64,000 nt of DNA from a virus: positions 1-64,000 of the IMG/VR virus record IMGVR_UViG_3300028920_000072; one strand, given 5' to 3'. The notes beneath the pieces are model-generated. The model ran no database searches. It was not told the DNA's origin and saw only the letters and a program-made list of their open reading frames with translations. Both the position numbers and the translations under genes were made by a program. This document shows positions 2,854-32,126 of the stretch, one piece after another. Every line of letters starts with the position of its first letter. Within the stretch, counting starts at the first letter, position 1.

Positions 2854-3762
2854 ATGATATACAAAAACGTAAGTGTAAAACGTGTAATAGCAAAAGTGTT
2901 TGCCGATCTTGATCTTCAAGAAGGAGATCATAAAATTAATGATATGATAGAATGGGCAGGCGAAGCTTTGGAAAAAATCGGTGTGTTTTCATCATTTATA
3001 AACAAAGTCACCGGTAAAGATGGAGTTCCAATATTAGAAGTCTTTAACTATCAAACTAAACTACCTTGTGATTTTTATAGACTTATTCAGGTATCTTTTT
3101 CTGAAAATGAAGCTGGGCCTTATTATCCTATGAGATATGCAACTGGTAGTTTTGATTATGGGTCTGTTATAAATGAAAGTACTAGTGATAGTATTGTTTA
3201 TCCAGAAAGTTCTCTTATTAATATAACTATGAGTTTATATGATCTTACATACGAACAAGCATTAGAAAAACTAAATGACGAACCTGCTACTCGTAGTCTT
3301 ATTAATTCTATGATCTCAGATATGGACAATAGAAGTGTTAATAATATAGTAGATGATCAAACTTTAGATTACACATATTTAATAACACCGAGTTATATAA
3401 AAACAAATCAAGAAACCGGTTATATAATGTTGGCTTATCAAGCAATACCAACAGATGATGAAGGATTTCCATTAATACCAGATCATGTTTCTTTTATGGA
3501 AGCTATATATTGGTATATAACTATGAAAATTTTATATCCTCAATGGAAAAATGGCAGAATAAGGGACGCTGTATATTATGATGCAAGACGTTCTTGGAAT
3601 TATTATTGTAAACAGGCATATGGTAATGCTCTCATGCCAAATAAAGATCAAATGGAAAGTATTAAAAACACATGGTTAAGAATAATACCAGAAATAAATG
3701 AACACGCCACTGCTTCTTCAACATTAGGGCAAAGGCAAATTATATATAATGCTAATAGATAA
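2854..3762 (+). CDS. Tail tubular/ring protein (adaptor, P22 gp4/T7 gp11-like position)
   Basis: A 302-residue protein whose N-terminal helix (VIAKVFADLDLQEGDHKINDMIEWAGEAL) and following beta-rich part (LPCDFYRLIQV) resemble the head-to-tail adaptor/tail tubular A proteins of podoviruses. It ends in helices with many Trp and Tyr (YWYITMKILYPQW). The stop overlaps the muzzle gene start (TAATGAGG). In crAss-like phages the ring proteins are encoded directly before the muzzle, which supports the assignment. Confidence 0.6.
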   Translation: MIYKNVSVKRVIAKVFADLDLQEGDHKINDMIEWAGEALEKIGVFSSFINKVTGKDGVPILEVFNYQTKLPCDFYRLIQVSFSENEAGPYYPMRYATGSFDYGSVINESTSDSIVYPESSLINITMSLYDLTYEQALEKLNDEPATRSLINSMISDMDNRSVNNIVDDQTLDYTYLITPSYIKTNQETGYIMLAYQAIPTDDEGFPLIPDHVSFMEAIYWYITMKILYPQWKNGRIRDAVYYDARRSWNYYCKQAYGNALMPNKDQMESIKNTWLRIIPEINEHATASSTLGQRQIIYNANR

Positions 3763-12931: not shown

Positions 12932-15900
12932 ATGTTGGATAAAAAAGACATATTCGCTTCTTTAGGGAGCGATAAAAAAGATACACCATTAGGTCAAGAA
13001 CCAGTTAATCCAAAAACAGGTCTTACAGAAGAAGATAAGAAAAAATTGTTTGAGGGATTAACTGGTTCAAGTCTTGGTGTTACAACTATCAGGGGGAGAG
13101 TTCCAAAATCTTACGAGCGTATACTCGGAGAGGAAGGCTATCACCCTGAATTTGGTTTTACAGCTACTCAGCAACAATTAGCAGAAGAACAATCTTGGGT
13201 TGGACAGTTTGGTAATATGTTAAATCAAATGATTGTTGGAGAAATTATAGGTGGCACCATTGAAGGTATTGGGTATTTATTAGATATACAACAATATGGG
13301 GATTTAGTAAATGGTACAGAACAAGAGTGGGGTAATTGGTTAAGTGATGTAGGTAAAGATCTTAGAACTTGGACACAAGAAGTGAGTCCAATTTATGTTA
13401 GTCCCACTGCGCCTAAGTTTAATCCAGGTAGTTGGTCGTGGTGGATGTCTAATATGCCATCTATTGGTTCTACGTTGTCGTTGTTGATACCTGCAACAGG
13501 TGCTGTTAAAGGGATATCGTTGTTAGGTAAAGCACTTAACATAGGTCAAAAAATTGGTAGGACTGCTGGTTGGATGGCCACTGGGATTGGTCGAGCGCTT
13601 GTATCTAGACATATGGAAAATCTCATGGAAGCTTCTGGTGTACATGAAGAGTCGTATCAAATAGCTAAACAGGAACTTATAAAACAATATGCTGATCAAA
13701 TAAATCAAGAACTTAGTCAAAGTGCTTTAAAAAATCCATTTGCTACAGAAGAAGAAAAATTAGCAGCGGCTGAAGTCATAAATACCAAGTGGGAAAAAAT
13801 AATAAACGAACAAGCTAAAATTCATGCTTCTAAAGCAGCAGCTAATACATATAAAAAACAATGGGTTACTGTTATGCAGGATATACCACAGTATTTGTTG
13901 TTTGGTATGCCACCTGGACTTGGTGGCGTTGTTGGAAAGGCGACAAAGGCCGCAAAGACAACTAATTTAAGTGGTAAAGTGGCTCGTGCTATGGGGATGG
14001 ATGTTACTAAGTTATTTGCTAATAAAGCTCGTTCTGTTGCTTTTGATATGTTGGGAGAAGGAGGAGAAGAAGCTTATCAATTTATTATTAATGAGCAATC
14101 AAAAGCTTTGATGCGTAAAGCGTTTGATCCTGATGTCAAACATAGTTTTTTAGATATTATAAAAGAAAACTATGACGATGGAGAATTATGGACATCTGCT
14201 GTTTTTGGTGCTTTAGGCGCTGGTGCAATGCAAGCAGTTGGTCGTGGTGCTAATAAACTTTTTATGGGAAAAGCTGATAAACGTAAAATAGAGAATATAC
14301 GTAGCTGGAGCCCAGCTATGGCACAGGCATATCAAGAATATTCTGCTGCTTTAGCGTCTGATGATCCTATTAAACAAAGACAAGCATACAATAGTTTTAT
14401 TGCAATCAACGCCATCAAAGCAGATCTAAGTGGCAATGCTGACAATTTTGTTGAATTTATAGAACAAATGGCTGATAATCCGGATGATGCAACTTTGGCT
14501 AATTTTAATGTACAAAAAGAACATATTAGTTTTTTATCTGAAAATCCAGAACTCAAAGATACCATCAAATCTGATATGAACAGAATTGATAAACTTTTAC
14601 GTACATATACTAAAGAAGTAGATAAAAACGATAAAATATCAGCGGAAGACAAACTCAAAGCAGCAGCTGCTCTTACTCATAATAGGTTTTTGAAAGAAAA
14701 AACTTCTAAGGAGTTAAATTCAATCAATGATGAAATATCCCAAATAGAGAGTGATCTTCCTGGTTTTGTCAATTCAACAGATGAAGTAAATGAACAAGGA
14801 GAGAATTTAATATATTCAGATACTGGACGTGCTATAAAACAACTTGAGTATTATAAACAGTCATTGGAAGACACCATAGCTAAGCGACAAGCTTATATGG
14901 ATGCCCATGATGATACTATGGGAGAAGTTGAAAAAGCTCAAAGTAAACTTGCAATATCAGTTGCGAAAAATAGATTACAACGAGCAAAAGGTGATCTCAA
15001 AGAACTTAGACAAAAATATACTAAAGAAGAAAGGAAAAACGATAAACAAATTCTTTTAGATGAACCTACTCTTAAGGAATATTTTTCTGCTAAGAAAAAG
15101 AAAGCATGGACAGAACTCGCATTAGATCAATTGGATGCAGAAAAGAAGTATATAGAGTCCGGTAAACCCTTTGCTACTTCTAAAGATAAAGAAGATACAG
15201 CGGGAGAAGATGAAAAAACACGCAAAGAAGATAGTCCAAATATAGATGACACAGTTGAATATGTAAATAAAGATGGTCAAACAGTACGTGGTAAAATAGA
15301 TGATATATTATTAGAGGATGAATCTGCGACTAATCCCATGTATGTTGTTAGACTATTAGACGAAGAAGGTAAACTTACAGATCAAACTATTGTACTTGAT
15401 CCGGAAGAAATACAAGATCACTTTAAAGATTCTACTGCATTAGAAGATAGTATAGATGATATTAGTTCTCCTTTAACTACAGAAGAGGAGAAGTGGTTTG
15501 AAATATTTAGTGAAGATGAAGAGATAGGCTCTGAAGGATCAGATGCTATTAATGGTTTGTCTTATACTCATTTCGATAAAGCCAAAAATTTGGAAATACG
15601 CAATGAAGCTTTAGATAAAGCTCTTAGAGACAAAAACAGAGATTGGTCTAAAGCTAAAGCATATTATTATATTGATGTCAATAGTGAGAGTTTTGATAAA
15701 ATATATGATGAGTTAGAAGATATACTTACTGATGCTCAGAAAGCAGTTATAAAAAAACTAAAGAAGATACAGCAGGAAAACTCTGATAAAAAACTTACCA
15801 AAAAAGAGATAGGTGCTTTGACCATTGTTTCATATCCTTTAACAAAAGAAGAATATTCAGTTGAAAATAAAATCAAAAAAGGGGAAGATTTAACTAAAGA

Positions 15901-18900
15901 AGAAGAGGTTATATCAAACAGAATACATAAAAAGAGACGTGCTTATAATTCTCTTTTAGATAGAATACCTATATTTGTAAAAATAGTACAGGGGGATGAG
16001 GTGTTCGATGGTGGTATGTATTTACATGCTACTGGTCATGATCGTATGCATGTGCCTAATAGTACAAAGAAAAAAGGACAAGCTGCTATTGATCAATATA
16101 AAGAAGAAAAGAAAAGTATAGCTAGGAGTAATCGTTCTGCTATTTTTTGGGCATATTTAAAAGGAGAAGAACCTTATACTACTGGATTGAAAATAGGTAG
16201 AGGATCTCTTAAAACTATTGATAAGAGTTTGCCTAAAAGCAAAAGACAAAGAAATTTAGCAAAAGTTTTAAAGAAAAAATTCAATGATTGTAAACTTTTA
16301 ATTGCTAATGGTACGTTAAGCAAAGGTACAACTGGTATAACTTTATATTCTGGACCTGTTACTTCAGGAGGCAAAGAGTCTAAATTTGGTCGTGGTTACA
16401 AATCTGCTGGTGGGGTATATATACGTGATGAAGAAGAAACACTTAACGGTGAACCATATGCTATTCATACAAACAAACGAAACATGTCTGAAGAACATGC
16501 TTTGATTGTACTTGAAGCATTTAGACAACAAGCATATGGAGTAAGAAAACCTAAAGGCAAGGATATATATGAAACTAGATTTCTTAAACCTTTTGTATTT
16601 AGTGAAAGTTCTTTAATAGATGAAGATGCTGTTGAAGGTTTAACTACTGGTCAAGTACTTGAATTATTAACTTATCACGGTCGTCATAGAACAGATCCAA
16701 CTGATCCTAGATTTAATGCTAAAGGCAAAGATCCAAAATTATTAAAGGCACTTGAAAATAAAACTTTGTATCTTGATATAGGGGATCGTGCTTTGAAAGT
16801 ATTTGGTGGTAAACCAACTGTTGCTTTGGTGTACGGTAAGGATAAAAAAATGATCAACTTACTTAACTATAGTGATGTTTTAGAAAAGAAAGATGATTTT
16901 ATTAAGTGGGCTACTAAAAATTTAGTTTATCCTGTACATCTTGAAAACAGAGCGCTTCATTTAGAATTAAATAAGAATTTTTTAGACGGTCGTACTTTTA
17001 GAATAGGAAAGAAAGATCCAATAGAACGCAAAAGGGGGGATAGATATAATGGTTTTGTTGTTAGAAATAATTTAATAACAGCTGATTTTGAACGTTTGGC
17101 CGATGGTAATCTGTATAGGGCGCCTTTTGTAGATCTTAATATAACCGATGGTAAAGGTAATCAAAGGATATTTACAAAAGACAATAAACCCGTACAACCT
17201 GTTGTGCCTGAACAAGAAAAGATCAAATCTAAGGCAGAGGTTGAGTCTGAAAAAGCAAAGAAAGAAGCAGAGGTAGAGTACAAAAATCCATTTAATACAC
17301 GTAGAGCACGTAGAGTCACTGTATTTAGAGAAAATATACCAAGTAAATTAACTGATCAAGAAACCATAGTGCTTGTAGAAAATATTTCTAGGCACCTAGA
17401 AGAACTTATTACTACTGATAAGTCCACTCCTTATACTCCTTCAGAAATAGTAGATAAACTTTTAAAAGATACAGAAACATACGATGCAATCGTTTTTGGC
17501 GATAGACGAGGTGAACTTAATAAACCCATCAAGGAATATATCAAAATGCGTGTTGCTGGAGTTATTACTCGTACTTTAATAGATGAGTATAAATATGGGG
17601 AAACTTTAACTGATGGGGCCAAAGGTTCTCCAACTGAAGAGGCCGTTGCTCCTAAAGTTGTACCAAATGTAGTAGAAGAGTATAAAGACGAAGACGAAGT
17701 TGTAAAACCAGCTAAGGTTAAAAAAGAAGTTGAACAAGTTGCTGAAGAAGATATTGAAACAATAGAGGATGTATCTATAGATGATCTTAATAGTGTTTTT
17801 GAAGATCTTGATAACAACGATGATTTGTTTAAACCCAGACAGGTCAGGAAAGAGTTAAAAAATTATACTGAACAAGATTTGGAAAAGGAACTCAAACGAG
17901 TTCTTAAGATGATAGGGCGTGATGTAAACGATATCAAATTAATTAAACGTCTGGTTGATCTTACTGGAAATGGTAAACTTGATTGGGCAGCTTATTCGCA
18001 CGATGCTATTGTATTATACGAAGCAGCAGAAGAGGGTACTATATATCATGAGACTTTTCATAGAGTTAGTTTAGGTTATTTAAAACCTATAGAACGTAAG
18101 CGGTTGTACAGTTTAGCTAAAGAATTTTATAAACTCAAAGAGGATGCCACTGATGACGAAATAGAAGAACGTTTGGCAGAAGAATTTAGGACTTACGTGT
18201 TGTTACAAGAGGAAAATGCTCCACGTGGTATAATGAAAATTCTCAAAGACATATTAAATTTCATACGTGCGTTTTTTGTACGTCCAAATGGTATGACTAA
18301 GAATGAATTAGATGCTTTTTTTGAATCTATTTATAGAGGAGATTATAGATTTTCTAAAAAATTAGAAGAAAATAGAATAAAAAATGGCAAAAAATATGCT
18401 AGAGCTATAAAAGATAAAGAATTTGACACTATAGTGTCTAGGGATTCTTTAAAAAACATAACTAAAACTCTAGCGGCTAAACTCTTAGCGGTAAATAATG
18501 TTACAGATCTTAATAATGTGGTTGCTATAGATCCAAACAAACTAATAAATTATTTAAGAAGACAAATAAAGATATTTAGTGTTCTTGAAACAAAAGAAGG
18601 TATACCAGAAATTCAAAAACAAAGAGCTACTAAAGTTAAAGCTCTGTTTGTTGAAATACTAGGCGATAATGAAGAAGGAGTTGCAGAAAATTTTCCTATA
18701 TTTCATGAATATATAAACGCCTATTTAAAAGATTTAGGAGTAAGAAAAACTAAAGAAGTAGACACATTTGATGAAAACGAAGAAGTTGTAGGTAAAGTTA
18801 GAATGGACAACACTCTTAAATCGTATGAGGTTTCGGTTTTAGATAGATCAATGGCTAGTGTTAAGTTTTTAGTTGGAACATTATATGAAGTGGCAGACAT

Positions 18901-21900
18901 TGAAAGAGAAGTTCAAGAAGATGGTACTGTTAAGATTATTCCTATTAAAGCAATAGATGAAACAACAGGATTGACAAAATTTGTGGATTTACATGAAGTA
19001 TGGAGCAGAGCATTAAATGATTTACATATTTATTCTACTATAGAAGAGATGATAGATGAAATGCGTGCTTTTGCTGAAAAAGAAAACAGGTATTATTACT
19101 ATGATTTAGCAAATAAATTAGAAAAACGAAAAGATGGGAAAAATGAACAGATAAGAAATCAATTTTTATCTACTTTTAGAAAACATAAGAGTTTGTTTAT
19201 AGAAATGGGTTTTAAAAAACCCAGAGGTGGTTTTAGTTATAACTTTGTTATTAGAGAATCTAGCAGTAAACAGTTGGCTCGTGAAGTAGTGCTTATGTGG
19301 AATGAATGTTTTTATTTAGATCCTAGTATAGTTAGTACGGGTATGGATGGTAATAAATATTTAAACAGAGAATTCTTTCATAAATTGAATGCTGATTTTA
19401 CAAATTTGTCCTCTGATTATGAAGAGAAATTAGATACAAATAAAGTAGATGCTAAAGTTATATCAGATACATATGATAAATTATCTGAATTATTTGATAG
19501 AATTCATGTAGGCGTTGATGTTGCTACTTTACAAACACTTGCTGATACTTTTGATAAAAAAACAGAAGAAGAAAGAGTTGGTTCTCTTATATCTTTTGTT
19601 GAAAAAGTATTTGTTGGAGAATTTGCACGTAAAGCGGAAGAAGAGGAAGCAGTGGAAAAGATACCACGATCCTTTATTAACGACAGAGTATTTTATAGTG
19701 GCAGAGAAAATACGGAGCAATCTTTGAGCGAAGCTTATGCAAAAGCACATCCTGAAAAGTTTAGTGACATGGTATTAGGGGCTGAGAATTCAAGGTATTA
19801 TACTTTTTCTCAACATAATTTAATAACTGAAAATGTACTTAAGTATAAAACAGATCCTGATTTTATAAGAGGAAAAAAGAGCAGATTTTATAATCATCAT
19901 AGTATTGGTTTACAACATTTATTGGAATCTGAAGAAAATAGAAGAAATTTTGATATTGTTACTTTTAATTTAATGCGTAATGAAAGAATTAGAGATAAAG
20001 GTAGTTCTTTTAATAAATTATCTGTAATAGAAACTTATTTAATTAAATTTGCTGCTTTAGAGAATGGTTTTATGCCAATGCCAGTTCAAGCTAATCGTAG
20101 TAAGTATTATTTTATGAAAGGTTTGCCTGTTCTTAATTTTAATGAAGTTGTAACTAATATAACAGAAGATGGTTATGTGACTTTTAGTGATACTACTTTA
20201 GAAAGATTTTATGGTTATTTCTTAGATGAAAAAGAACGCATAGAAGAAATTAAAAAATTAGAGAAGGAGTATAAAGCAGCCGACGAAGATGGTAAAGCAG
20301 AAATACGTTCTAGAATGATATTAAATTATCATCACGATGGTTCGTTTGATTTTAAAACAGGAAACGCCAGAAATTTTATACACTTTAAAGTTTTTAATGG
20401 TAAAAATTTAAGTAAACTTTCTAAAAAGGAGATAAAAAATTTAATTAATGATGATCTAAACGCTAGATTAAAAGACGAAATAGATTATCTTGTTGGTATA
20501 GATGTTATATTAAACGAAGGAGAGGGTAATATATCCAATTTATTATTACAAGAGAATAAACTCATGGATATAGAAGATTATCTATCAGAAACAAGTAAAG
20601 AATTAGGTAGTGATTTAGAGAGTCCTGCTCTTAAAGTTAGAATAGCTGAATATTTAGTTAATCACATGTCTTCTATACTGGAATCGGAAAAGATGTTTTT
20701 TGCTGATCCGGCTATGTTTAAAAAAGACAAAGGATCTAAATTTGATGTTGCAGATGATGTTTATAAACGTTGGTTTGGCCCAGGTTCGACAGGTGAGAAA
20801 TTTGCTGAACAAACGGATAGTATGATGGATACTACTTATAATGTTGTTACTCTTAACACACAAACGTTTAAAAGTAAATATTATGATCGTTTGTTTGCTA
20901 AGCACGTAGAGTTAAACAAACAAATATTCGGTGAAGATAAACAAGATCATGCTGAAAAAGCTGCACAAATAGCATTAAAAGCATATGAAAAAGTAGATGC
21001 TACAGATGGTGCCATGTTAATATCTCCTGAGTTTTATCGTTCTCTTATGATGAGGTTAGGAGCATGGTCTAATGAAAATCAAAAAGCATTTGAACTTTTG
21101 CAATCAAATAAAAAACTTACTCCTGAGGAAGAAGTTATTGCCAGAAACATTGTATTGCAACCAATCAAAACAGTATATGTAGGTAGTCAAAATAACAATG
21201 GAGTTGATCATTTTATTTATGATAAAATGGCTATGTTTCCTATATTTAGACAAGTGGTTACAAACAAACACATGAAGATGTTACTTGATAGAATGGAAGC
21301 AGTTGGAGAATTTAAAGGGTTGGATAAAATACATGCTTTCAAATTTGATTCTGCTACCAAAGTAGGTAACGTGAGAGGTATTGATTTTTATTTAGATCCT
21401 GAGAATAGAAAACAGGTTAACGTAGATGGTCTTAAAAATGCTGTAATTACTCCACAAATGTATGAAAATTTGAGATATCAACTTGTAACTGATGTTCATG
21501 ATGTCGTTGAACAAAATGTAGCTAGTCAAGTTGCAAAAGTTGCTATGGGTAATATACAAAAAGATGCAACGTATGGTGATAAAACAGGTAGGGAATTAAT
21601 TCAGGATTTTGTTAAGACAATATCAGAATTAAGTAATATAGGGACAGAGAAAGTAAAGGCGGATTTTAATATAGAAAATGGTCGTATATCAGATAAAAGA
21701 TTAGTTGCTACTTTATTAAGAGCAGCTACGTCTGCTAATAAATCAGAAGATTTAATAAATGCCTTGAGATACGATGAAGAAAGAAATGAAATATATCTTA
21801 GCATTGATGCTATGACTAATAGAGCTTGGGTATATTCTAGACTTATGCCCATGATAAGTGAAAAAACGATTGATTTGACTTTTCCTGGTAATCAATTGAT

Positions 21901-24900
21901 ACAAGTCCCAGATTATGGCCAAGGGGTAGGTGTGGATGAAGAACTTGGTTTTTCTTATATGGACGAAAAAAACGAATTTATTAGAATGGAATCTAAAGTC
22001 TCTGAAAGATTACTTAGAGATATAATACCTAATTATGCAAAACTAACTCATGAACAAAGAAAAGCTTTTATAAAGAAAAATGATATAACTTTAATAGCTT
22101 ATCGTGTACCTGTACAAGGGCAAAACTCCATAGTTGTGATGAAAATAGCTGATTTATTACCAGAACAATCTGGAGATGTAATACATGTACCACTGGAATT
22201 TACTGCACTTACTGGTTCTGATTTTGATATTGATAAGCTGTTTGTTATGCGTAAGTATTATAAAGTTAACAAGAAAGGCGAAGCCGTTCCTGTTAAATTT
22301 AGTACATCTGATTCATCAGAAGCAGTAAAAAGCAGGTATATAGCTAAAATAAATGAATTATATAATATACATAAATTTAACGAAGTTGTTATACCTAAGA
22401 GTATTCGTGAAAAAGTTGAAACATTTAAGAAAGTTGAACATTCGGCCAGATTAGAAAAAAGTAAAATATATAATGACGGTAGTTATAACGAACTTAAACC
22501 TTTGTACGATGAATTAAAAATACTTAAAAGTAAGTACCAATTAGCTCCTGAACAAGACAAAGAGTCAATAATGGATGTAATATATGACATTCAAGAAAGG
22601 ATAGCAATAGTTGAAGAAAAAAGAACAGATGTAGAAACTGGTGGAATAAACGATATTATATTAGCTGTTGAAGATGTTAAATTCCAAACTATAAAAGATC
22701 TTTTGGTTAAAGCTGGTTTAATTTCTGGTGATATAGAAGTGTTTGCTAAATTACCAATAGAACAACAGAATACTGAAAAAGCTTTAAAAAATAGACTTTT
22801 TGATATATATACAACTATACTTACTGATGAAAAACAATATCTTAATATTTCTACTCCATTGGGCAATTTGGTTAAATTGCTCGAAGAAACAGCAGATAAG
22901 TATGAAACTTTGGCCAAAAAGGATAAAAACAAAGGGTTGGAATCATTGGAAACACTTACTCCTAAATATCAATCGGAAACAAGGTTTAAATTCATATCTT
23001 CTGATATGGGTATTGGTCCTGCTGCTTTAACTAACGTACATCATGTATTAACTCAATTGACTGAAATACAACTAAAAACTAGAAATAACTATGGTTGGAA
23101 TGAAAAAGGCAGGCTTGATTTAAGTAGGGAAGTTGGAGAAGATGGTAGAAAGATACTTGATTGGACTTCTACTCAAATTGATGCGTTTGTAGATGCTGTT
23201 AAAAATCCTTTCATAATGAAACTTAACGTTAATGATGCTACACAAAGTGTTGTCAACTTATTGTTAAGAGCAGGATTAGGTCTTACTACTTTTTCTTTTG
23301 TGTCTCAACCAATTCTAAAACACTATGCTTTTGAATATTTTAATGCATCTGGTAGTATTAATCGATATTCTTCAGGTAATATAGAAAAACTAGTGGCAGA
23401 TAACATCATGGCTATTTGGGCAGAAAAAGTTAATCCAGATGTAAGTGCTGAAGATTTGTTTAATGAAGATGAAAATAGGATAGACTTGCCTGCTATTTTA
23501 AATCAGACACAATTAGAAGAAGATATAGATGCAAATAAACAAAACAATTCAGCTTTTTATATAAGACAGTTAAATGTATTACGACATTTTATATCTATAA
23601 ATCAAGATGCTAAAGCGTTAAATGCATTGGTCCTGGCCACGAGGGTTGATACAAAGGATTATGGTAGTAATCCAATAGAACTTAGACAATTTTTATATAA
23701 TATACAAACACTAGAAAATAAAAACAAATTTGTTAATTTAGAAAAACTGATTAGTTCAGACGGTGAGGTTGTAGATGGAGGAATACATTTATCTGCTTTA
23801 CTTAAAAACAGTGTCTTATTAGGCTTAGAACTAATGGGAGACAAAAGTATGTTTGCTACTACAGGTTTTGCTAAAACTATTCGTGATATATATGATTCTA
23901 TACCTGGGGGTAAATCTTCTAGGATACTTAAAGAATTAAGCGAAGAATTATATACTTATTTCATTAGTGGTTTTTTCATAGATGCAGAAGACGGATTGAA
24001 GATGACACAAAAACAATTGTATAGATTGTTCTTTGGTTTACATCCAACGGATGAAGGTAAAGATTTAAGTAATGATTTAATACCTGATTCTGTCTTTAAT
24101 ATGCTCAATAAAGCGCGTAGTAAAAATAGTAAATATTACGCAGAGTTGTCTAATAATAAATTTATACAATTTTTAACAATAGATGTAGATCCAGAGGGAG
24201 TTGTCAAAACTTTTATACGTACTCCGTTTCATTCGTTTAATGAAAAGTGGAGCACGGACGATCTTATAGAAGATTTTAATAAGTTATTTACTCATGAAGC
24301 TAAAGAGATACGTGATTTAGCTAGAGTGTTATATATTTATTCTTTTTATTCTACTGGTTTTAGGCGTACGATGTTTGGTTATAATACGTTTATACCTAAT
24401 GAAATCAATAAAGCAATTAGATTACAAAATGGTAAAATTGTTAGTTTTGACAGACATGTAAAAAAGATTGTTGAATTTCTTAATAGCGAAGAGGGAAATA
24501 CGTCTATGCTTTCGTCTGCTAAAAGAGAAGTATTTAAAAACAACTGGCAAAACGATGAGATTGTTAAAGTAGTGCCTATCACTGCTATAGAAGATAGTTT
24601 CACATATGGGGATAAAGGCGCTCAATATGCATTTGAATTAAGTTCTAAAAAGTTAACAAGATTCAAAGTTGGTTTAAATGCAGATGGTCAATCCTTATTT
24701 GCTCCTTATATCAAAATGGAACTTTTTGGTGAAAAAAATGTATTATTAGAATACGTTGGATATAATCAAGAAACTAAAAATCCTATCTATGTTATTGTAC
24801 CTAGAAAAGGTTATAGGTTTAGGGGTAAAGTATTAAACGAATATAACATAGGTAAAAAGATGGGCAACAGTATTCTTTTATCTAACGATCCGTTTTATTT

Positions 24901-26383
24901 ACAACGTAATTTCTTAGCTGAAAAAGATGAGGAATTAGAAAAAGGAAAATTACAATATTTAACTGTAGAACAAGCGGTTGAAAAATTACGTAATGTTGAT
25001 AATTTTGTGCATGTTCCTATGGAAGCACAACTTATAGTACGTAAAAAAGAAGAAAATCCATATCTAATAGATTATAGAGGCGGTATTGATGTACAAACTG
25101 AAGGGGATGAAACTATGGAAGATCCTAACGCTATTCCGACTAAAAAAATAATATCTGGTTTTCAATCAGGCATGGATGAAGAATTGCTATCTTTGGCTAA
25201 AGAATTCAATTATGAAACAGGTGGCACTACTACTAGAGATTATGGTCAAGAAGGAAATAATAAAGTTAAGAGTAAAGCACAACAATTTGGTGTAGAAGCA
25301 GTAACAGAAAAGCAAGAAGAAGCATTTAAAGAAGCGTATCCATACAGAAACGATCCTAAATCGTTGTATTATTTGCCACGTACCGAATTGAATGTTATAA
25401 ATTCTGATGCCACGGTGTATTTTTCGGCAGATATAAATGCAACTGACGGCGGTTTACCAGCTACTCTAGGTGCTGCTCAAAGACATTCCAAGCCTTTCTT
25501 TATGTATACCCCCGAAGGACAAACATGGGAGCGTAAAGAGTGGGGAATTGGTTTCTCTAGTTCAAATGAGTTACAAAGATTACTTAGGAAATATAAAGTT
25601 AGAACTTTAAATGTTGCTGGTTCCAGACTTTCTAAGTTATCTCCTGAGCAATTACGTGAATTTAAGAGAGTGTTTAAAGAGACCATTGGGGCAGAACCTG
25701 ATACAACTACGGATACAACTCAATTATCCATATCATTTACTACAACATCTGACATTCCAGAATTTAGAACGGAAAGTTTATCCACTCGTAATCATCCAAT
25801 AACAATATATGTAGATGGGTCTGATATCAAAGGTACTGGTCAAATAGGCTATGGGGCGTATGCTAATTTTATTGGTGTTGATTATACTATGAGTGGCATA
25901 TCTGATAAAAAAGCTTTTGCTGATTTTTATAACATATCTGAAACAGATATAACTAATGCAATATCTAATCCAACTATGGAATTATTAGGCACAGTTAAAG
26001 TATTAGAACAATTTTCTAAAACAGGTGAACATTTATTAATTAGACAAGATTATGATGGAGTACAGAAGTGGATAAAAGGTGAATGGAAGCAGAAGAAACT
26101 TTGGATAAAAGATCTTGTACAAAAAGCTAGGGAACATATTGCTGCGATTGAATCTCATGGTGGTTCTGTTAGATTTGAGTGGATTCCTGGGCATGTTGGT
26201 ATACCTGGTAACGAAAAAGCAGACACATTAGCTAAAAGTAGAAAAGAACATAATAACATATCTAAGTTGGTTAAAATGTCTCCAACTATTCGTGCTACCA
26301 CAGGATCTATACAAACATCATTTGAATTTTCGGAAAAAGACATAGAAAAAGGTAAAGAAACTAAAGAGAAGTGTAATGAGTAA
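12932..26383 (+). CDS. Giant virion RNA polymerase polyprotein with zincin, YpsA-like and RNase H domains
   Basis: This 4483-residue protein is expected to enter the host with the DNA and transcribe early genes. From N to C: hydrophobic and Gly-rich segments at about 170-220 and 315-450 (possible membrane insertion during ejection); a zincin-like motif HETFH (H1706-H1710) with a likely third ligand in RLAEEFRTY; a long helical region; the polymerase core ending in YRVPVQGQNS and TGSDFDIDKLF, the DxDxD metal site (D3097, D3099, D3101) of two-barrel RNA polymerases such as YonO and phage phi14:2 gp66. About 4070-4240 is a YpsA/molybdenum-carrier-like domain (ISGFQSGMDEELL). About 4288-4440 is an RNase HI with D4295, E4350, D4373 and D4431. 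It overlaps the next gene by 8 bases. Confidence 0.85.
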   Translation: MLDKKDIFASLGSDKKDTPLGQEPVNPKTGLTEEDKKKLFEGLTGSSLGVTTIRGRVPKSYERILGEEGYHPEFGFTATQQQLAEEQSWVGQFGNMLNQMIVGEIIGGTIEGIGYLLDIQQYGDLVNGTEQEWGNWLSDVGKDLRTWTQEVSPIYVSPTAPKFNPGSWSWWMSNMPSIGSTLSLLIPATGAVKGISLLGKALNIGQKIGRTAGWMATGIGRALVSRHMENLMEASGVHEESYQIAKQELIKQYADQINQELSQSALKNPFATEEEKLAAAEVINTKWEKIINEQAKIHASKAAANTYKKQWVTVMQDIPQYLLFGMPPGLGGVVGKATKAAKTTNLSGKVARAMGMDVTKLFANKARSVAFDMLGEGGEEAYQFIINEQSKALMRKAFDPDVKHSFLDIIKENYDDGELWTSAVFGALGAGAMQAVGRGANKLFMGKADKRKIENIRSWSPAMAQAYQEYSAALASDDPIKQRQAYNSFIAINAIKADLSGNADNFVEFIEQMADNPDDATLANFNVQKEHISFLSENPELKDTIKSDMNRIDKLLRTYTKEVDKNDKISAEDKLKAAAALTHNRFLKEKTSKELNSINDEISQIESDLPGFVNSTDEVNEQGENLIYSDTGRAIKQLEYYKQSLEDTIAKRQAYMDAHDDTMGEVEKAQSKLAISVAKNRLQRAKGDLKELRQKYTKEERKNDKQILLDEPTLKEYFSAKKKKAWTELALDQLDAEKKYIESGKPFATSKDKEDTAGEDEKTRKEDSPNIDDTVEYVNKDGQTVRGKIDDILLEDESATNPMYVVRLLDEEGKLTDQTIVLDPEEIQDHFKDSTALEDSIDDISSPLTTEEEKWFEIFSEDEEIGSEGSDAINGLSYTHFDKAKNLEIRNEALDKALRDKNRDWSKAKAYYYIDVNSESFDKIYDELEDILTDAQKAVIKKLKKIQQENSDKKLTKKEIGALTIVSYPLTKEEYSVENKIKKGEDLTKEEEVISNRIHKKRRAYNSLLDRIPIFVKIVQGDEVFDGGMYLHATGHDRMHVPNSTKKKGQAAIDQYKEEKKSIARSNRSAIFWAYLKGEEPYTTGLKIGRGSLKTIDKSLPKSKRQRNLAKVLKKKFNDCKLLIANGTLSKGTTGITLYSGPVTSGGKESKFGRGYKSAGGVYIRDEEETLNGEPYAIHTNKRNMSEEHALIVLEAFRQQAYGVRKPKGKDIYETRFLKPFVFSESSLIDEDAVEGLTTGQVLELLTYHGRHRTDPTDPRFNAKGKDPKLLKALENKTLYLDIGDRALKVFGGKPTVALVYGKDKKMINLLNYSDVLEKKDDFIKWATKNLVYPVHLENRALHLELNKNFLDGRTFRIGKKDPIERKRGDRYNGFVVRNNLITADFERLADGNLYRAPFVDLNITDGKGNQRIFTKDNKPVQPVVPEQEKIKSKAEVESEKAKKEAEVEYKNPFNTRRARRVTVFRENIPSKLTDQETIVLVENISRHLEELITTDKSTPYTPSEIVDKLLKDTETYDAIVFGDRRGELNKPIKEYIKMRVAGVITRTLIDEYKYGETLTDGAKGSPTEEAVAPKVVPNVVEEYKDEDEVVKPAKVKKEVEQVAEEDIETIEDVSIDDLNSVFEDLDNNDDLFKPRQVRKELKNYTEQDLEKELKRVLKMIGRDVNDIKLIKRLVDLTGNGKLDWAAYSHDAIVLYEAAEEGTIYHETFHRVSLGYLKPIERKRLYSLAKEFYKLKEDATDDEIEERLAEEFRTYVLLQEENAPRGIMKILKDILNFIRAFFVRPNGMTKNELDAFFESIYRGDYRFSKKLEENRIKNGKKYARAIKDKEFDTIVSRDSLKNITKTLAAKLLAVNNVTDLNNVVAIDPNKLINYLRRQIKIFSVLETKEGIPEIQKQRATKVKALFVEILGDNEEGVAENFPIFHEYINAYLKDLGVRKTKEVDTFDENEEVVGKVRMDNTLKSYEVSVLDRSMASVKFLVGTLYEVADIEREVQEDGTVKIIPIKAIDETTGLTKFVDLHEVWSRALNDLHIYSTIEEMIDEMRAFAEKENRYYYYDLANKLEKRKDGKNEQIRNQFLSTFRKHKSLFIEMGFKKPRGGFSYNFVIRESSSKQLAREVVLMWNECFYLDPSIVSTGMDGNKYLNREFFHKLNADFTNLSSDYEEKLDTNKVDAKVISDTYDKLSELFDRIHVGVDVATLQTLADTFDKKTEEERVGSLISFVEKVFVGEFARKAEEEEAVEKIPRSFINDRVFYSGRENTEQSLSEAYAKAHPEKFSDMVLGAENSRYYTFSQHNLITENVLKYKTDPDFIRGKKSRFYNHHSIGLQHLLESEENRRNFDIVTFNLMRNERIRDKGSSFNKLSVIETYLIKFAALENGFMPMPVQANRSKYYFMKGLPVLNFNEVVTNITEDGYVTFSDTTLERFYGYFLDEKERIEEIKKLEKEYKAADEDGKAEIRSRMILNYHHDGSFDFKTGNARNFIHFKVFNGKNLSKLSKKEIKNLINDDLNARLKDEIDYLVGIDVILNEGEGNISNLLLQENKLMDIEDYLSETSKELGSDLESPALKVRIAEYLVNHMSSILESEKMFFADPAMFKKDKGSKFDVADDVYKRWFGPGSTGEKFAEQTDSMMDTTYNVVTLNTQTFKSKYYDRLFAKHVELNKQIFGEDKQDHAEKAAQIALKAYEKVDATDGAMLISPEFYRSLMMRLGAWSNENQKAFELLQSNKKLTPEEEVIARNIVLQPIKTVYVGSQNNNGVDHFIYDKMAMFPIFRQVVTNKHMKMLLDRMEAVGEFKGLDKIHAFKFDSATKVGNVRGIDFYLDPENRKQVNVDGLKNAVITPQMYENLRYQLVTDVHDVVEQNVASQVAKVAMGNIQKDATYGDKTGRELIQDFVKTISELSNIGTEKVKADFNIENGRISDKRLVATLLRAATSANKSEDLINALRYDEERNEIYLSIDAMTNRAWVYSRLMPMISEKTIDLTFPGNQLIQVPDYGQGVGVDEELGFSYMDEKNEFIRMESKVSERLLRDIIPNYAKLTHEQRKAFIKKNDITLIAYRVPVQGQNSIVVMKIADLLPEQSGDVIHVPLEFTALTGSDFDIDKLFVMRKYYKVNKKGEAVPVKFSTSDSSEAVKSRYIAKINELYNIHKFNEVVIPKSIREKVETFKKVEHSARLEKSKIYNDGSYNELKPLYDELKILKSKYQLAPEQDKESIMDVIYDIQERIAIVEEKRTDVETGGINDIILAVEDVKFQTIKDLLVKAGLISGDIEVFAKLPIEQQNTEKALKNRLFDIYTTILTDEKQYLNISTPLGNLVKLLEETADKYETLAKKDKNKGLESLETLTPKYQSETRFKFISSDMGIGPAALTNVHHVLTQLTEIQLKTRNNYGWNEKGRLDLSREVGEDGRKILDWTSTQIDAFVDAVKNPFIMKLNVNDATQSVVNLLLRAGLGLTTFSFVSQPILKHYAFEYFNASGSINRYSSGNIEKLVADNIMAIWAEKVNPDVSAEDLFNEDENRIDLPAILNQTQLEEDIDANKQNNSAFYIRQLNVLRHFISINQDAKALNALVLATRVDTKDYGSNPIELRQFLYNIQTLENKNKFVNLEKLISSDGEVVDGGIHLSALLKNSVLLGLELMGDKSMFATTGFAKTIRDIYDSIPGGKSSRILKELSEELYTYFISGFFIDAEDGLKMTQKQLYRLFFGLHPTDEGKDLSNDLIPDSVFNMLNKARSKNSKYYAELSNNKFIQFLTIDVDPEGVVKTFIRTPFHSFNEKWSTDDLIEDFNKLFTHEAKEIRDLARVLYIYSFYSTGFRRTMFGYNTFIPNEINKAIRLQNGKIVSFDRHVKKIVEFLNSEEGNTSMLSSAKREVFKNNWQNDEIVKVVPITAIEDSFTYGDKGAQYAFELSSKKLTRFKVGLNADGQSLFAPYIKMELFGEKNVLLEYVGYNQETKNPIYVIVPRKGYRFRGKVLNEYNIGKKMGNSILLSNDPFYLQRNFLAEKDEELEKGKLQYLTVEQAVEKLRNVDNFVHVPMEAQLIVRKKEENPYLIDYRGGIDVQTEGDETMEDPNAIPTKKIISGFQSGMDEELLSLAKEFNYETGGTTTRDYGQEGNNKVKSKAQQFGVEAVTEKQEEAFKEAYPYRNDPKSLYYLPRTELNVINSDATVYFSADINATDGGLPATLGAAQRHSKPFFMYTPEGQTWERKEWGIGFSSSNELQRLLRKYKVRTLNVAGSRLSKLSPEQLREFKRVFKETIGAEPDTTTDTTQLSISFTTTSDIPEFRTESLSTRNHPITIYVDGSDIKGTGQIGYGAYANFIGVDYTMSGISDKKAFADFYNISETDITNAISNPTMELLGTVKVLEQFSKTGEHLLIRQDYDGVQKWIKGEWKQKKLWIKDLVQKAREHIAAIESHGGSVRFEWIPGHVGIPGNEKADTLAKSRKEHNNISKLVKMSPTIRATTGSIQTSFEFSEKDIEKGKETKEKCNE

Positions 26384-29300
26384 TCCATTTTGCATAAATC
26401 CAAATAATGAAGAATATAGAGAAATGGTCTCTATATTTGGTGAAGATTTAACATATTATCTGTGGAACGAAAACGGCGGGCAACCATTAGATCATGCTCC
26501 AAACGGAGAGTATAGTAATTTATTTAATGATTTGTTTGCTTTATCTGGTAATAGGGAAGATGCGTTAGAATTAAAAGCTCAGATATATACTGAAGATTTT
26601 AAAACGATGTTCGATGGTGAAAGAGATGAAAACGGAGAACCTGTTGCAAGTAGTTTGTTTGTTACTGAAGAAGACGAAGATGAAATAACTAAAAACAGAA
26701 AACATCCTAAAGTAAAAGAAGCATTAGAAAATCCTAAATACAAACCAGGTGAAATAAATGATTTTAATAATCCATTGTCTTGGGATATAGAGAAGGAGTT
26801 TGATTTGCTTGAAAAAGAGAAGAATGACAAAGGGGAGTTGGTAGATAAATGGACTACTCTATTAGGCAGAAGAATAAAACATTATCGTAAATATAGGAGA
26901 GACAGAGCTGAGAGAATAGCAAGTGAAATAAGGGCAAAGGGACATTTAGCAGATATACGTAAAACATATAGAGGTAACACAGTTAAATATTATGTAGTTC
27001 CAGGAGTTCCTATTGGCATTAAGGGAGATAGGTATAAATACATGACTGTTGCTGGTAGGGAAATACAAACCAAAGAAGAAGATGCTCCTCATATAAGGAG
27101 ACTGTTGGGGTTTGTAAATAGACCTAAAACTAATGTTATATCTTTACTTAAAACTTTTCGTTCAGAGTATGGAGAAGTACTTGAGAATAATCCTCTCTTA
27201 AAAGCTAAATTTGATTTCATAATTAGACAAGAGGAGAAGTTAAAAACTTTACGTGTCTATAATCTACCAGAACATGATAGTCCTAATGCATATGCTGTGT
27301 ATGATCCTACTTTTCATCTCATAGGTTTTAATGTTGAAAATTTAATAGAAGAGCCTAGTTTAGAGGCTTTTGCAGAGATATTAGTTCATGAGGCATATCA
27401 TGGTATGACAGCTAAAGCAATTGATGATCCAACTTCTGAAGCAGAACGCAAGTTTAAAGCAGAAATCGAAAAGATATTTGAAACCTTTTTAGAGACAAAT
27501 AAAGACAATACTGATTACATAGAGATGTATCAAAGTGCTTGGACTAAAGAAAATAAAAAGACTGGGGAAGTTGTAAATGATGTTCATGAGTTTATAAGTG
27601 CTTTTAATTCTAATAGCGACTTTGCTGCTTCTTTAAAACCAACTATTATAAAACGCATAAGGCATGCAGTTTACAACTTTTTTGTTGATTTATTAAATGC
27701 AGTTGGTGTAGATATTTCTAAAAAAGGGGATTTTACTTATGATAAAGTCGATAGGGTAGTTAACAGCTTTATAGAAAATCAAACTAAGTTTATGCCTGTT
27801 AGTCCAACTACTTATTCTAAGCGAGACGATAATGCTAAGAAGTATGTTGCAGCAAGAGACAGCATTAAAGAAAAAATAAGGCACATTCTTGAAGGCAGAC
27901 CGAAAGAGATAGCAAAAGCTTTGCGTTCTATTGCTAATGACTTTATATTTGACAAAAAAGAGCATACATATTATCATAAGCCTACTGGTACTTGGTTCAC
28001 ATCTACGACTGAATTTTTAGCTTCTGTGGGCATAGGTGGAGTTAGAGTGTTTGAAATAAAAGAAGGTAAAGAATATGTAATAGCAAAAGGTGAAATTACA
28101 TACAATAAAGTTTTATATAAGAAAGGGCAAACTTTTGTTGGCATTAAAAATAAATCTTCTTTTAAAGGTGAAGGGGAAGTAATTAGTGTTGCCGTAGAGA
28201 GAGGTGGAAATTTGGGGAATGCCATGCATAGAAGTGTTGAAAGTATAGTAGAAGACGTAGCGTATGATATAGAAGAGGAAACTGGATTTAAAGTTGGAGA
28301 ACAAGCTATTAAAAGTCTTATAAAAATAATAGAAGACCTTAAGGGAGAATCTGGTATTGCTTTATCAGAAGTGCTAGTTGCACATCCTGAAAAAAGCAGA
28401 GCCGGTACAATCGATTTAATAATAATTGACAAAACTGGTAGAGTACATTTATTTGATTTTAAGACTAAAGAAAAGGGGTTTAGATGGTACAATAGTACTA
28501 AATATGGAGTGTCTGATAAAAAGAAGTACCATATGCAATTAAACTTCTATAAGCACATGCTTGATAAAATGTTTCCATTTAAGCTGGTCGCTAGTATGAA
28601 CGTTGTTATGTTACAACCTGATGTTGTTGGTGATGAAATAGTTGATGTAGAATTAGACAATACTATTTTTGATAGTGGTATAGATAGATTTGAAACCATG
28701 GAATCGGATTTTGCTGGAACGTATGGAGATAAGCCTGTAAGATATTCTGCTAGTGCTTTAATAGATAGAGTAAAAGAAGATATACGTGCTGACAGTTATA
28801 TGGATTTGCCTGAATTTTTATTGTTAGCATCAGAAAAATCAAAATTAACAGAAGCTGAAACTTTATTGAAAGAAACTTTAAATAAATTCAATAAGAGGCT
28901 TGATATAATGCAAGCAAGATATTCTTTTAGTAAAAGAGAAGGTTTTGAAAAATTCATGGATGAATTAGTTACATCTCAAAATGCTACTTCTGCTTTTTTA
29001 CAAATAGTAACTTATGCATATAAGCAAACCAATATAGTTAAAAAACAGTATGATGATTTAATTAAAAAAGGGGAAAGACCTACTGCAGAAACATTATATC
29101 AGTGGAAAGATTACTTAGTTGTATTTGAAGTATTAGATGATATCAAAAACTTAGTAATGGATGATCCTAGTATGTTTAGTGATCCTAAAACAATGGATAT
29201 GTTAAATTCTGCAATCGATGTTAAGAATTTTATAAAACATAAATTTTTAACTATTGGTAAGGAAATTATAGCAGAGTGGTTGGCTCCATATTATAATGGA

Positions 29301-32126
29301 ATTAGAGCAGAAATTAGGGAGAAAATACTGAGGAAGTATAGAGTAGATTTGACTAATAAAACGAGAAAATTTAGAAAAGAAGGCAATTCTAAGAAAGAAG
29401 CTAGAATAAAAGCACGTGAAGAATTAGGCACAGAGGAAGAATATGTACAAGAACAATTAACTTTAAAAGGTACAGATATAGCTAAAAAAACTTATGAATT
29501 ATTATACAAAGAATTAACATTAGCATCTAGAGATGTAAGTGAATTAACCAGATGGTTAGATAATATGTTAGATGCTAGTGATCCAGTGGTTTCTGCTGCA
29601 GTCAATGCGTTTATGGAAAAAGATGATCTTCATGAAGTCGAAGCTTTAAACAAAAGAGCAGAGCTCATAGACGATTTAACAGAATTTGAAAAAACCAATC
29701 CAAAAGGCTTACTTACCTCAGAAGAAGAATTGTATTCATTTATATTAGAACGTGATGAAGATGGTGAATTAACTCAATATTTACTTAAACCTTGGACAAG
29801 TGCTTTTGAACAGATAGAAAAAAAGCATGCGGCAGAATTATTTAAAGATTATGATTCAGCACAAGCTAAGAAGAATTTAGCAGAATGGCGTAAAGAATTC
29901 ATGCCTACTGATAAAGAAGCATATTATGATGGTTTAGAGGCACATTTAAATTTATTTGTTGTAGGTGAAGAGAAGCTTATACGAAACAATGAAGTAGATA
30001 TTATTATAACAAATTTAGTACAAGAAGAATATCGAGATTTACATGAAATGGCCGAAGAAGGAGAAATAAGTGAATTTGCTGCAGATCAAGCATTAGAATG
30101 GATGAAACTTAATAGATGGAAATATAGTCAATTTAAAGATTATACAGATCCTAAAACTAAAAAAGTCACTAAAGCAATTAATCCTAAATGGTCTGAGTTT
30201 GTTAAAGAATTAGGTATATCAACAGAATTACCTATATATGAACAGATGGCAGAAGTTGAAAAATCAACCCATCCAAAAGCTAAATTATATAATGTTTTAA
30301 TGAAATTAGCCAAAGAAGCTGATAGTATGGTACCTTATAGTTATAGATTAGGGTATCGTTTGCCTGGAGTAGCCAAAACTTCTCATGAACGAGTTAGATC
30401 AGGTCAATCCCCTGCTACTTTTTTTAAAGAAGAATTTAAAAGTAGTTTGTTTTTACGTCCAGAAGATATAGAACGTGGGGAATCGATGCAATTCAAAGAT
30501 GAATTAGGCAGAGCAAAATATTTTATTCCTATTCATTACACTGCTCAGATAGAACCAAAAAATCAATCGTATGATCTTCCTGGTATATTTTATAAGCGTT
30601 GGAGTTCTGCTAATGAATACAGCCACAAACGTCAGATATTATCTGAAATGGAAATGACTAAATTTTTTGTTGAAACAAGGGATGTGAAAAAAAGAAGCGT
30701 GTTAAATAAAATTATACCAAGGAAGATAAACAAAGGGGAAGATGATGACGATCAACCAGAAAGAATGAGTGGTAGTAATCTAGCTGCTATGTTTAGTGAT
30801 TGGTTTGAGTTGGCAGTATATGGTCGTAAGACTAAAGATACTAACAAGGGAACACCTAGTGGATTAATAAAGATAAATGAAAATTGGGTATTAGATACCA
30901 GTAAAGCAGTAGATGCATTGAATAGATATACCTCATTAAATTTACTCGGGGGCAATCTAGTGCAAGGTGTAGCTAATGTGCTAATAGGAGAAACAATGCA
31001 AGCGATAGATACTTTTGCTGGAGAACATGTTAATATGAAGAGTTTTACCAAAGCTAATCTTATATATCATTCGTGGTTGCCTAAAATGATGTTAGATTCT
31101 GGTCTGAAACAACCTCAACACAAAGGGTCTTTGATTATAGAACGATTCGGTATATTACACGGAGATCCTAGATATACTAATTTTGCTATGCGTACTCGTG
31201 TAGGTCAACAATTAAACTACGGTTCTTTGTATTTTATACAACAAGCGGGGGAACATTGGATGCAAGCTAGATTTTTATTTGCGTTGTTGTTAGACAAAAA
31301 GGCTTATGATAAGGAAGGCAATGAAATAGGTAGTATGCTTGAACAGTATCAAGTTAAAAATGGTAAATTAATTATTAATCCAAAAGTTGATTTGATTAAA
31401 TCAAAGTGGACAGCAAAAGATCAGGCAGCTTTTAAACAAAGAGCCAAGGGGTTACTTTCCAGAATGCACGGTGAATATAGTGAATTAGGTCGTGTAGCTA
31501 TACAAAGATTAGCATTAGGTCGTATGGCGTATATGTTTCGTAAATTTGTAATACCTGGTATTAAACGTAGATATGGTAGGAGAAAATATATACAAAGATT
31601 AGATCAATTTGTAGAGGGTAATTATATTACTACTGCTAAATTTGTGGCCAATTTATTTCAAGATTTAAAAATATTTAAACTTGCTTTAATGTCAGAAGAA
31701 TGGGCTAAATTAAATGATCACGAAAGAGCTAATATATATCGTACAATAGCAGAAGTAGCATTTGTTATAGGTACTACTATATTAGCTAATGTATTCTTCA
31801 GGCTAAAAGAGGACGACGATGACGATGATCGTTTCAATGCTTTTCTTGCATATCAGTTTTTTAGGTTACAAACTGAATTGTTGTTTTTCTCACCTAAATT
31901 AGACGAGGCGATAACTATATTACGTTCTCCTATGGCGAGCATGTCAGTTGTAGAAAATATAATTAAAATGTTAGGTCAAATATTTCATCCGTTTGATGAA
32001 TATGAACGTGGACCATGGAAAGGAGAATATAAGATTAAAAAGACTATGATTAATTTTGTTCCATTATATAAACAATATTATAAAGCACGAGATGTTGAAG
32101 AACAAATACCATGGTTTAAGAACTAG
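26376..32126 (+). CDS. Giant virion protein with zincin motif and PD-(D/E)XK nuclease domain
   Basis: A 1916-residue protein whose ATG overlaps the polymerase stop. Domains seen: a zincin-like HExxH (HEAYH, H338-H342) in a helix preceded by EAFAEILV; a RecB/Cas4-type nuclease at about 520-770 with the motifs GNAMHR, AGTIDLIII, FDFKTKE (near D694-K696) and QLNFYK; a long helical region (780-1900) with many charged residues; and C-terminal hydrophobic patches (FVIGTTILANVFF) before an Asp-rich run. It may help process DNA or host proteins on entry. Zinc and nuclease functions are predicted from motifs only. It is the last gene before the convergent terminators. Confidence 0.7.
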   Translation: MSNPFCINPNNEEYREMVSIFGEDLTYYLWNENGGQPLDHAPNGEYSNLFNDLFALSGNREDALELKAQIYTEDFKTMFDGERDENGEPVASSLFVTEEDEDEITKNRKHPKVKEALENPKYKPGEINDFNNPLSWDIEKEFDLLEKEKNDKGELVDKWTTLLGRRIKHYRKYRRDRAERIASEIRAKGHLADIRKTYRGNTVKYYVVPGVPIGIKGDRYKYMTVAGREIQTKEEDAPHIRRLLGFVNRPKTNVISLLKTFRSEYGEVLENNPLLKAKFDFIIRQEEKLKTLRVYNLPEHDSPNAYAVYDPTFHLIGFNVENLIEEPSLEAFAEILVHEAYHGMTAKAIDDPTSEAERKFKAEIEKIFETFLETNKDNTDYIEMYQSAWTKENKKTGEVVNDVHEFISAFNSNSDFAASLKPTIIKRIRHAVYNFFVDLLNAVGVDISKKGDFTYDKVDRVVNSFIENQTKFMPVSPTTYSKRDDNAKKYVAARDSIKEKIRHILEGRPKEIAKALRSIANDFIFDKKEHTYYHKPTGTWFTSTTEFLASVGIGGVRVFEIKEGKEYVIAKGEITYNKVLYKKGQTFVGIKNKSSFKGEGEVISVAVERGGNLGNAMHRSVESIVEDVAYDIEEETGFKVGEQAIKSLIKIIEDLKGESGIALSEVLVAHPEKSRAGTIDLIIIDKTGRVHLFDFKTKEKGFRWYNSTKYGVSDKKKYHMQLNFYKHMLDKMFPFKLVASMNVVMLQPDVVGDEIVDVELDNTIFDSGIDRFETMESDFAGTYGDKPVRYSASALIDRVKEDIRADSYMDLPEFLLLASEKSKLTEAETLLKETLNKFNKRLDIMQARYSFSKREGFEKFMDELVTSQNATSAFLQIVTYAYKQTNIVKKQYDDLIKKGERPTAETLYQWKDYLVVFEVLDDIKNLVMDDPSMFSDPKTMDMLNSAIDVKNFIKHKFLTIGKEIIAEWLAPYYNGIRAEIREKILRKYRVDLTNKTRKFRKEGNSKKEARIKAREELGTEEEYVQEQLTLKGTDIAKKTYELLYKELTLASRDVSELTRWLDNMLDASDPVVSAAVNAFMEKDDLHEVEALNKRAELIDDLTEFEKTNPKGLLTSEEELYSFILERDEDGELTQYLLKPWTSAFEQIEKKHAAELFKDYDSAQAKKNLAEWRKEFMPTDKEAYYDGLEAHLNLFVVGEEKLIRNNEVDIIITNLVQEEYRDLHEMAEEGEISEFAADQALEWMKLNRWKYSQFKDYTDPKTKKVTKAINPKWSEFVKELGISTELPIYEQMAEVEKSTHPKAKLYNVLMKLAKEADSMVPYSYRLGYRLPGVAKTSHERVRSGQSPATFFKEEFKSSLFLRPEDIERGESMQFKDELGRAKYFIPIHYTAQIEPKNQSYDLPGIFYKRWSSANEYSHKRQILSEMEMTKFFVETRDVKKRSVLNKIIPRKINKGEDDDDQPERMSGSNLAAMFSDWFELAVYGRKTKDTNKGTPSGLIKINENWVLDTSKAVDALNRYTSLNLLGGNLVQGVANVLIGETMQAIDTFAGEHVNMKSFTKANLIYHSWLPKMMLDSGLKQPQHKGSLIIERFGILHGDPRYTNFAMRTRVGQQLNYGSLYFIQQAGEHWMQARFLFALLLDKKAYDKEGNEIGSMLEQYQVKNGKLIINPKVDLIKSKWTAKDQAAFKQRAKGLLSRMHGEYSELGRVAIQRLALGRMAYMFRKFVIPGIKRRYGRRKYIQRLDQFVEGNYITTAKFVANLFQDLKIFKLALMSEEWAKLNDHERANIYRTIAEVAFVIGTTILANVFFRLKEDDDDDDRFNAFLAYQFFRLQTELLFFSPKLDEAITILRSPMASMSVVENIIKMLGQIFHPFDEYERGPWKGEYKIKKTMINFVPLYKQYYKARDVEEQIPWFKN

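Follow-up and report, generated by a model that had tools for sequence, protein, structure and literature searches.

An RNase H1-like domain fused in frame to the virion RNA polymerase of a crAss-like phage

We analysed a 64,000-nucleotide stretch of viral DNA (positions 1 to 64,000 of IMG/VR record IMGVR_UViG_3300028920_000072; hereafter the window). An open reading frame (ORF) of 4,483 amino acids (12932..26383; this and all features below lie on the plus strand) encodes what is, by homology of its DFDxD core to phi14:2 gp66, a crAss-like virion RNA polymerase (vRNAP). The C-terminal part of this protein contains an RNase H1-like domain (residues 4287-4440, 25790..26251). A reading of the DNA letters without database searches (the sequence-only reading) had proposed a complete RNase HI fused to the polymerase, and profile searches and structure modelling confirmed an RNase H1-fold domain with an intact DEDD quartet and loop histidine. 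We tentatively propose that the tethered domain cuts the RNA of RNA-DNA hybrids on phage DNA entering the cell.

The RNase_H family of Pfam (PF00075) matched residues 4289-4436 with E = 1.2e-11 and 45.4 bits (cut-off 25.8), and this domain was the only RNase_H match in the 65,122-base record that contains the window. A phmmer search of the domain against PDB sequences returned RNases H exclusively (best E = 1.3e-7), and the PHROG 'Rnase H' profile matched it at 6.6e-19. An AlphaFold2 model built with 23 relatives in the input had a predicted local distance difference test score (pLDDT) of 91.1 and a predicted template modelling score of 0.89, with secondary structure in the order beta-beta-beta-alpha-beta-alpha-beta-alpha. 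With this model the matches listed by Foldseek were RNases HI (best E. coli RNase HI, 3.1e-10), and VIA-align gave Z scores of 15.5 to 2ehg and of about 15 to the RNase H domain of HIV reverse transcriptase (RT). Structure prediction and a profile search were among the checks that the sequence-only reading had proposed for its own claim, and both returned an RNase H.

Alignment placed D4295 (25814..25816), E4350 (25979..25981), D4373 (26048..26050) and D4431 (26222..26224) on the catalytic residues D10, E48, D70 and D134 of E. coli RNase HI. These are the four residues singled out beforehand, in the expected order; the alignment added H4421 (26192..26194), corresponding to the loop histidine H124. 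The five columns showed no variation across 24 aligned RNase H domains. The domain had also been placed at the end of the protein. It is C-terminal, but not at the very end, as about 43 residues, including C4481, follow GNEKADTLAKSRKEH.

The polymerase was identified with an alignment of the DFDID region from 16 relatives (A2), used as a profile. Its single match among PDB sequences was gp66, the RNA polymerase of phi14:2 (6vr4, E = 2.2e-46), and the DFDID motif (residues 3097-3101, 22220..22234), the predicted catalytic metal-binding motif of the polymerase, occupied invariant columns. The core ends at about residue 3985, and the tail beyond it comprises 498 residues, as compared to 71 in phi14:2, 90 in crAss001 and up to approximately 1,600 in other relatives. 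The RNAP-associated proteins gp47, gp49 and gp50 of crAss001 were found in virions by mass spectrometry and have been modelled as being ejected from the virion before the DNA (PMC10172136). Because the phi14:2 and crAss001 homologues are so reported, we infer that the window vRNAP is likewise packaged in the virion and ejected into the host.

Relatives were collected as 80 IMG/VR loci, retrieved with an aligned, conserved segment of the polymerase, and 18 annotated crAss-like records. A C-terminal RNase H fused to the vRNAP was found in five: the window and the loci L020, L021, L022 and L040. The finding is therefore broader than in the sequence-only reading: the fusion recurs in four more crAss-like contigs, and in other relatives different modules occupy the site. 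Pfam missed the domain of L020 (a 101-kb contig), which was recognised by inspection, and its match in L040 (3.9e-5) fell just short of the cut-off. A dedicated scan with the aligned RNases H added no other contig with the fusion. Alignments were needed for such searches; single-sequence scans of viral contigs with the window C-terminus or the polymerase segment gave no matches. By the profile of the fused family each of the five records holds a single RNase H copy, and no RNase HII was found in them.

The five fused domains are approximately 36-46% identical, with the catalytic quartet and the histidine unchanged in every one. Only 29 of their 142 shared columns are invariant, and these include all five catalytic columns (probability by chance approximately 3e-4). 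In the polymerase tree the window, L020, L021 and L022 form one clade (support 100), whose end branches measure about 0.3-0.9 changes per site; L040 stands apart. The RNase H tree, computed by a quick method and with long branches that leave deeper placement uncertain, joined the five fused domains in one clade (98), apart from free-standing crAss-like RNases H and from Bacteroidota RNases HI. Free-standing RNase H genes (162-174 aa, one per record) were present in seven other crAss-like records, and most crAss-like records contained no phage RNase H whatsoever. Among phage and plasmid records the closest matching proteins were conventional RNases H or cpYpsA proteins, each encoded separately. 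One candidate, MT839238.1, was ruled out as a vRNAP fusion, being a free-standing 241-aa RNase H ORF with a different N-terminus.

Directly upstream of the RNase H lies a second domain that is absent from the sequence-only reading. Pfam matched cpYpsA (PF12694) at residues 4073-4236 (1.4e-11), and this SLOG domain spans residues ~4072-4240 (25145..25651). Its AlphaFold2 model (pLDDT ~90) aligned to 3imk over 157 residues with a VIA Z of 19.1, and the domain is conserved in L020, L021 and L022. It is probably a module binding nucleotides or ADP-ribose (ADPr) derivatives, and may act separately. When the final 454 residues were modelled, both domains were confident, joined by a partly disordered linker (25652..25789; model residues 228-250 below pLDDT 50) and followed by a disordered segment and a terminal helix. 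A genome-contig scan with the combined SLOG and RNase H query found no bacterial SLOG-RNase H fusion; the RNase H part only (query 173-368) was matched, mostly by Bacteroidota RNases HI. In L143 (Acinetobacter phage MD-2021a contig, 1489-2868) the N-terminal part of a gene annotated as dnaQ (DNA polymerase III) resembles RNase H, an RNase H-exonuclease fusion.

The tail that follows the RNase H (26252..26380) ends in the short terminal helix and carries the near-universal cysteine C4481 (26372-26374), which corresponds to column C496 of the tail alignment A5 and is at least 90% conserved. A cysteine occurs within the final 13 residues of 75 of 82 crAss-like vRNAP tails, mostly at a distance of 0-4 residues from the C-terminus (background, 1.6% for random 13-mers drawn from these tails), and the C4481 column is the sole near-invariant column of these otherwise poorly conserved regions.

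Across the 82 tails Pfam identified NADAR (13), DUF7831 (8), the superfamily 1 (SF1) helicase-type AAA_30 (8), DUF1848 (8), cpYpsA (6) and RNase_H (4), and ASCH was seen in the tail of L035. A recognisable module was present in 40 of the 82 by local profiles, a rough count, and looser, locally iterated SLOG counts (18-19 vs. 6 by Pfam) were not relied on. The RNase H is accompanied by SLOG in the window, L020, L021 and L022, and by ASCH in L040, the latter call resting on the pattern of the sequence and on a local profile in common with the Pfam-positive L035. Helicase and RNase H were never observed in one tail (approximately 0.5 expected), with numbers too small to carry meaning. By these domain assignments the crAss-like vRNAP C-terminus is an exchangeable module bay, and RNase H is one option among several at this site. 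The tails of L041, L062, L088, L091, L016, L019 and others hold up to five modules per polypeptide (SF1 helicase, DUF1848, NADAR, SLOG, ASCH), an apparent bay for counter-defence or nucleotide handling. A further module of about 110 residues with an FVFGSN..G motif occurs in the tails of L021, L022, L041 and L088. It had no Pfam match in L021, L022 or L041, and a DUF7831-like label for it in L021 and L022 was dropped, as Pfam placed no DUF7831 in these two or in L041.

We hypothesize, with a probability of about 0.4, that the vRNAP-tethered RNase H acts on hybrids formed on the entering genome. The vRNAP would enter the cell ahead of or together with the phage DNA and then transcribe early genes from it. 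RNA-DNA hybrids would arise on this DNA, either as R-loops or as non-displaced transcripts of a QDE-1-like single-chain polymerase, and the tethered domain would cleave their RNA. The cleared genome would thereby stay available for continued transcription and ejection and for replication to begin. Phi14:2 gp66 and QDE-1 have been grouped as single-chain two-barrel polymerases that are most similar to each other (PMC10770324), and on single-stranded DNA in vitro QDE-1 yields mostly DNA/RNA hybrids; RNase H removes these, or RPA keeps them from forming (PMC2950127). This property of a structural relative makes the role in early infection offered by the sequence-only reading plausible; for prime-site processing, its other suggestion, no specific evidence was found. 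The SF1 helicase tails of eight other vRNAPs could, by analogy, represent an alternative hybrid-resolving module. The broader scenario, in which one crAss-like lineage built a hybrid-clearing two-barrel RNA polymerase with its own RNase H and others use fused helicases or signal-degrading enzymes, we regard as doubtful.

Several observations weigh against hybrid removal. An RNase H would destroy rather than release the hybridised transcript. Phi14:2 and crAss001 lack such a tail domain and about half of the vRNAP tails have no recognised module, and polymerases of this type thus do not generally require hybrids to be removed. The usual companions in the bay (NADAR, SLOG and ASCH) are not hybrid-related. 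In addition, NPGPGG and the TNNR before the catalytic glutamate, RNA-contact motifs of E. coli-type RNase HI, are changed in all five fused domains. As NPGPGG and TNNRME are replaced throughout, we file the domain as a divergent RNase H1-like subfamily and not as E. coli-type, and from its altered motifs no particular substrate specificity can be assumed. These losses, together with a long insert between the histidine loop and the last aspartate in four of the five, would also fit an RNase H fold retained for binding or for a substrate other than RNA-DNA hybrids (e.g. host RNA, double-stranded RNA or structured DNA). Human and other HBD-type RNases H1 likewise lack NPGPGG, and the loss of this motif therefore does not exclude hybrid cleavage; with the DEDD quartet and the loop histidine all invariant as well, we find a changed substrate quite unlikely. 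The little overall conservation of the tail regions could even suggest a recently captured, functionless passenger. That is already disfavoured and in our judgement highly improbable, as the domain has stayed intact across the polymerase clade, over the branch lengths given above, and again in L040, with invariant catalytic residues.

The strongest competitor to hybrid removal on the entering genome, and nearly as likely, is an injected counter-defence function. Here the vRNAP tail would be a polyvalent effector bay in which the RNase H destroys defence hybrids (R-loops of RNA-guided nucleases, retroelement hybrids or guide/target hybrids) and the SLOG domain binds or degrades alarm signals derived from NAD or ADPr. 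It is a serious rival because the RNase H is one of several exchanged C-terminal modules: the site that it occupies holds NADAR, DUF1848, SF1 helicase, cpYpsA SLOG and ASCH in relatives, and its own partner switches between SLOG and ASCH. Viral SLOG and NADAR domains, described like viral Macro and Nudix as typically standalone, have been predicted to act against immune signals derived from NAD/ADPr (PMC9503650), and polyvalent proteins, N4-like vRNAP fusions among them, are described injected multidomain effectors (PMC5512222). However, no direct link to any defence was found, and the RNase H is stable within one polymerase clade instead of being rapidly swapped. Retron defence is moreover weakened without host RNase H1 (PMC8989520), and an anti-retron role is therefore not straightforward. 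We consider it unlikely that the domain is a replication helper that removes RNA primers or opens R-loop-primed origins in the first rounds, substituting for a free-standing enzyme. The seven records with a single free-standing gene, and the lack of a second RNase H in every record with the fused one, agree with such substitution. Most crAss-like records, however, manage without a phage RNase H, the fused domains form a separate clade and not a relocated free-standing gene, and a virion protein made late would be a poor source for ongoing replication. Replication priming, an altered substrate and passenger status are the less likely readings.

The arrangement can be compared with several known systems. 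Phi14:2 gp66 (6vr4) and crAss001 gp50 share with the window protein the DFDxD core, a giant virion-block protein and an adjoining second large RNAP-associated protein, but have no accessory domain after the core, where the window protein continues for about 500 residues that include SLOG and RNase H. E. coli RNase HI and human RNase H1 share the fold, the DEDD quartet and the loop histidine; the window domain differs from the E. coli enzyme in the changed motifs, the inserts, its tether to a polymerase and its own clade. HIV-1 RT is also a polymerase with a C-terminal RNase H, structurally similar to ours (Z given above), but the window enzyme is a predicted two-barrel DNA-dependent RNA polymerase and not an RT, and the analogy extends only to how the parts may work. 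The SLOG domain resembles the cpYpsA family (3imk, 'molybdenum carrier') and differs in being embedded in a vRNAP tail. Polyvalent proteins combine several unrelated enzymatic domains on one polypeptide, are encoded in virion gene blocks and can include an injected vRNAP as one module; in the window an RNA polymerase, a SLOG and an RNase H lie on one polypeptide within such a block. Iyer et al. (2017) described N4-like vRNAPs fused to metallopeptidase, ART, lysozyme and PBECR domains (PMC5512222), a different polymerase family from that of the window; the terms RNase H, RNaseH and crAss do not occur in the main text of that paper. A counterpart to the polyvalent-associated zincin-like metallopeptidase may be the HETFH (HExxH) motif at residues 1706-1710 (18047..18061), a motif only, with no Pfam match.

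The genome was placed in Crassvirales from the crassvirus muzzle protein gene upstream of the vRNAP (3762..8219; PF25731, 6.4e-177). The muzzle gene, the vRNAP and an adjoining second large cargo gene downstream (26376..32126; 1,916 aa) belong to a crassvirus virion gene block, and profile searches of window genes identified a DNA polymerase, a primase, a ribonucleotide reductase and a repair exonuclease elsewhere in the window. The 1,916-aa protein has a weak PD-(D/E)XK match and, near residue 340, a HEAYH (HExxH) motif without a profile match. The HETFH and HEAYH motifs of the two giant cargo proteins could mark possible zincin-like peptidases that process the polypeptides. In two relatives, L035 (11810-17308) and L036 (IMGVR 3300017963_000497 and 3300017971_000421), the vRNAP gene continues in frame into the cargo gene that follows it, and the end of the fused ORF is 36% identical to the 1,916-aa protein over 1,136 columns.

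Each component described here was known already; their combination and the tail survey were not found in the literature searched, in which no paper named a virion RNA polymerase together with an RNase H domain. A search for crAss-like phages with NADAR, SLOG or polyvalent proteins gave no crAss-like phage paper among the matches listed. Yutin et al. (2021) described the transcription block as large multidomain proteins, and RNase H, SLOG and ASCH are all absent from the main text of that paper. The RNase H is a concrete domain of a crAss-like vRNAP, and a single substitution, D4295N, suffices to test its loss. It is relevant to how a single-chain polymerase of the QDE-1 kind parts its transcript from DNA, and to which other tasks the ejected complex performs when infection has only just begun. 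Our survey of 82 tails indicates that many crAss-like phages, which are abundant in the human gut, may inject lineage-specific sets of enzymes on the polymerase polypeptide.

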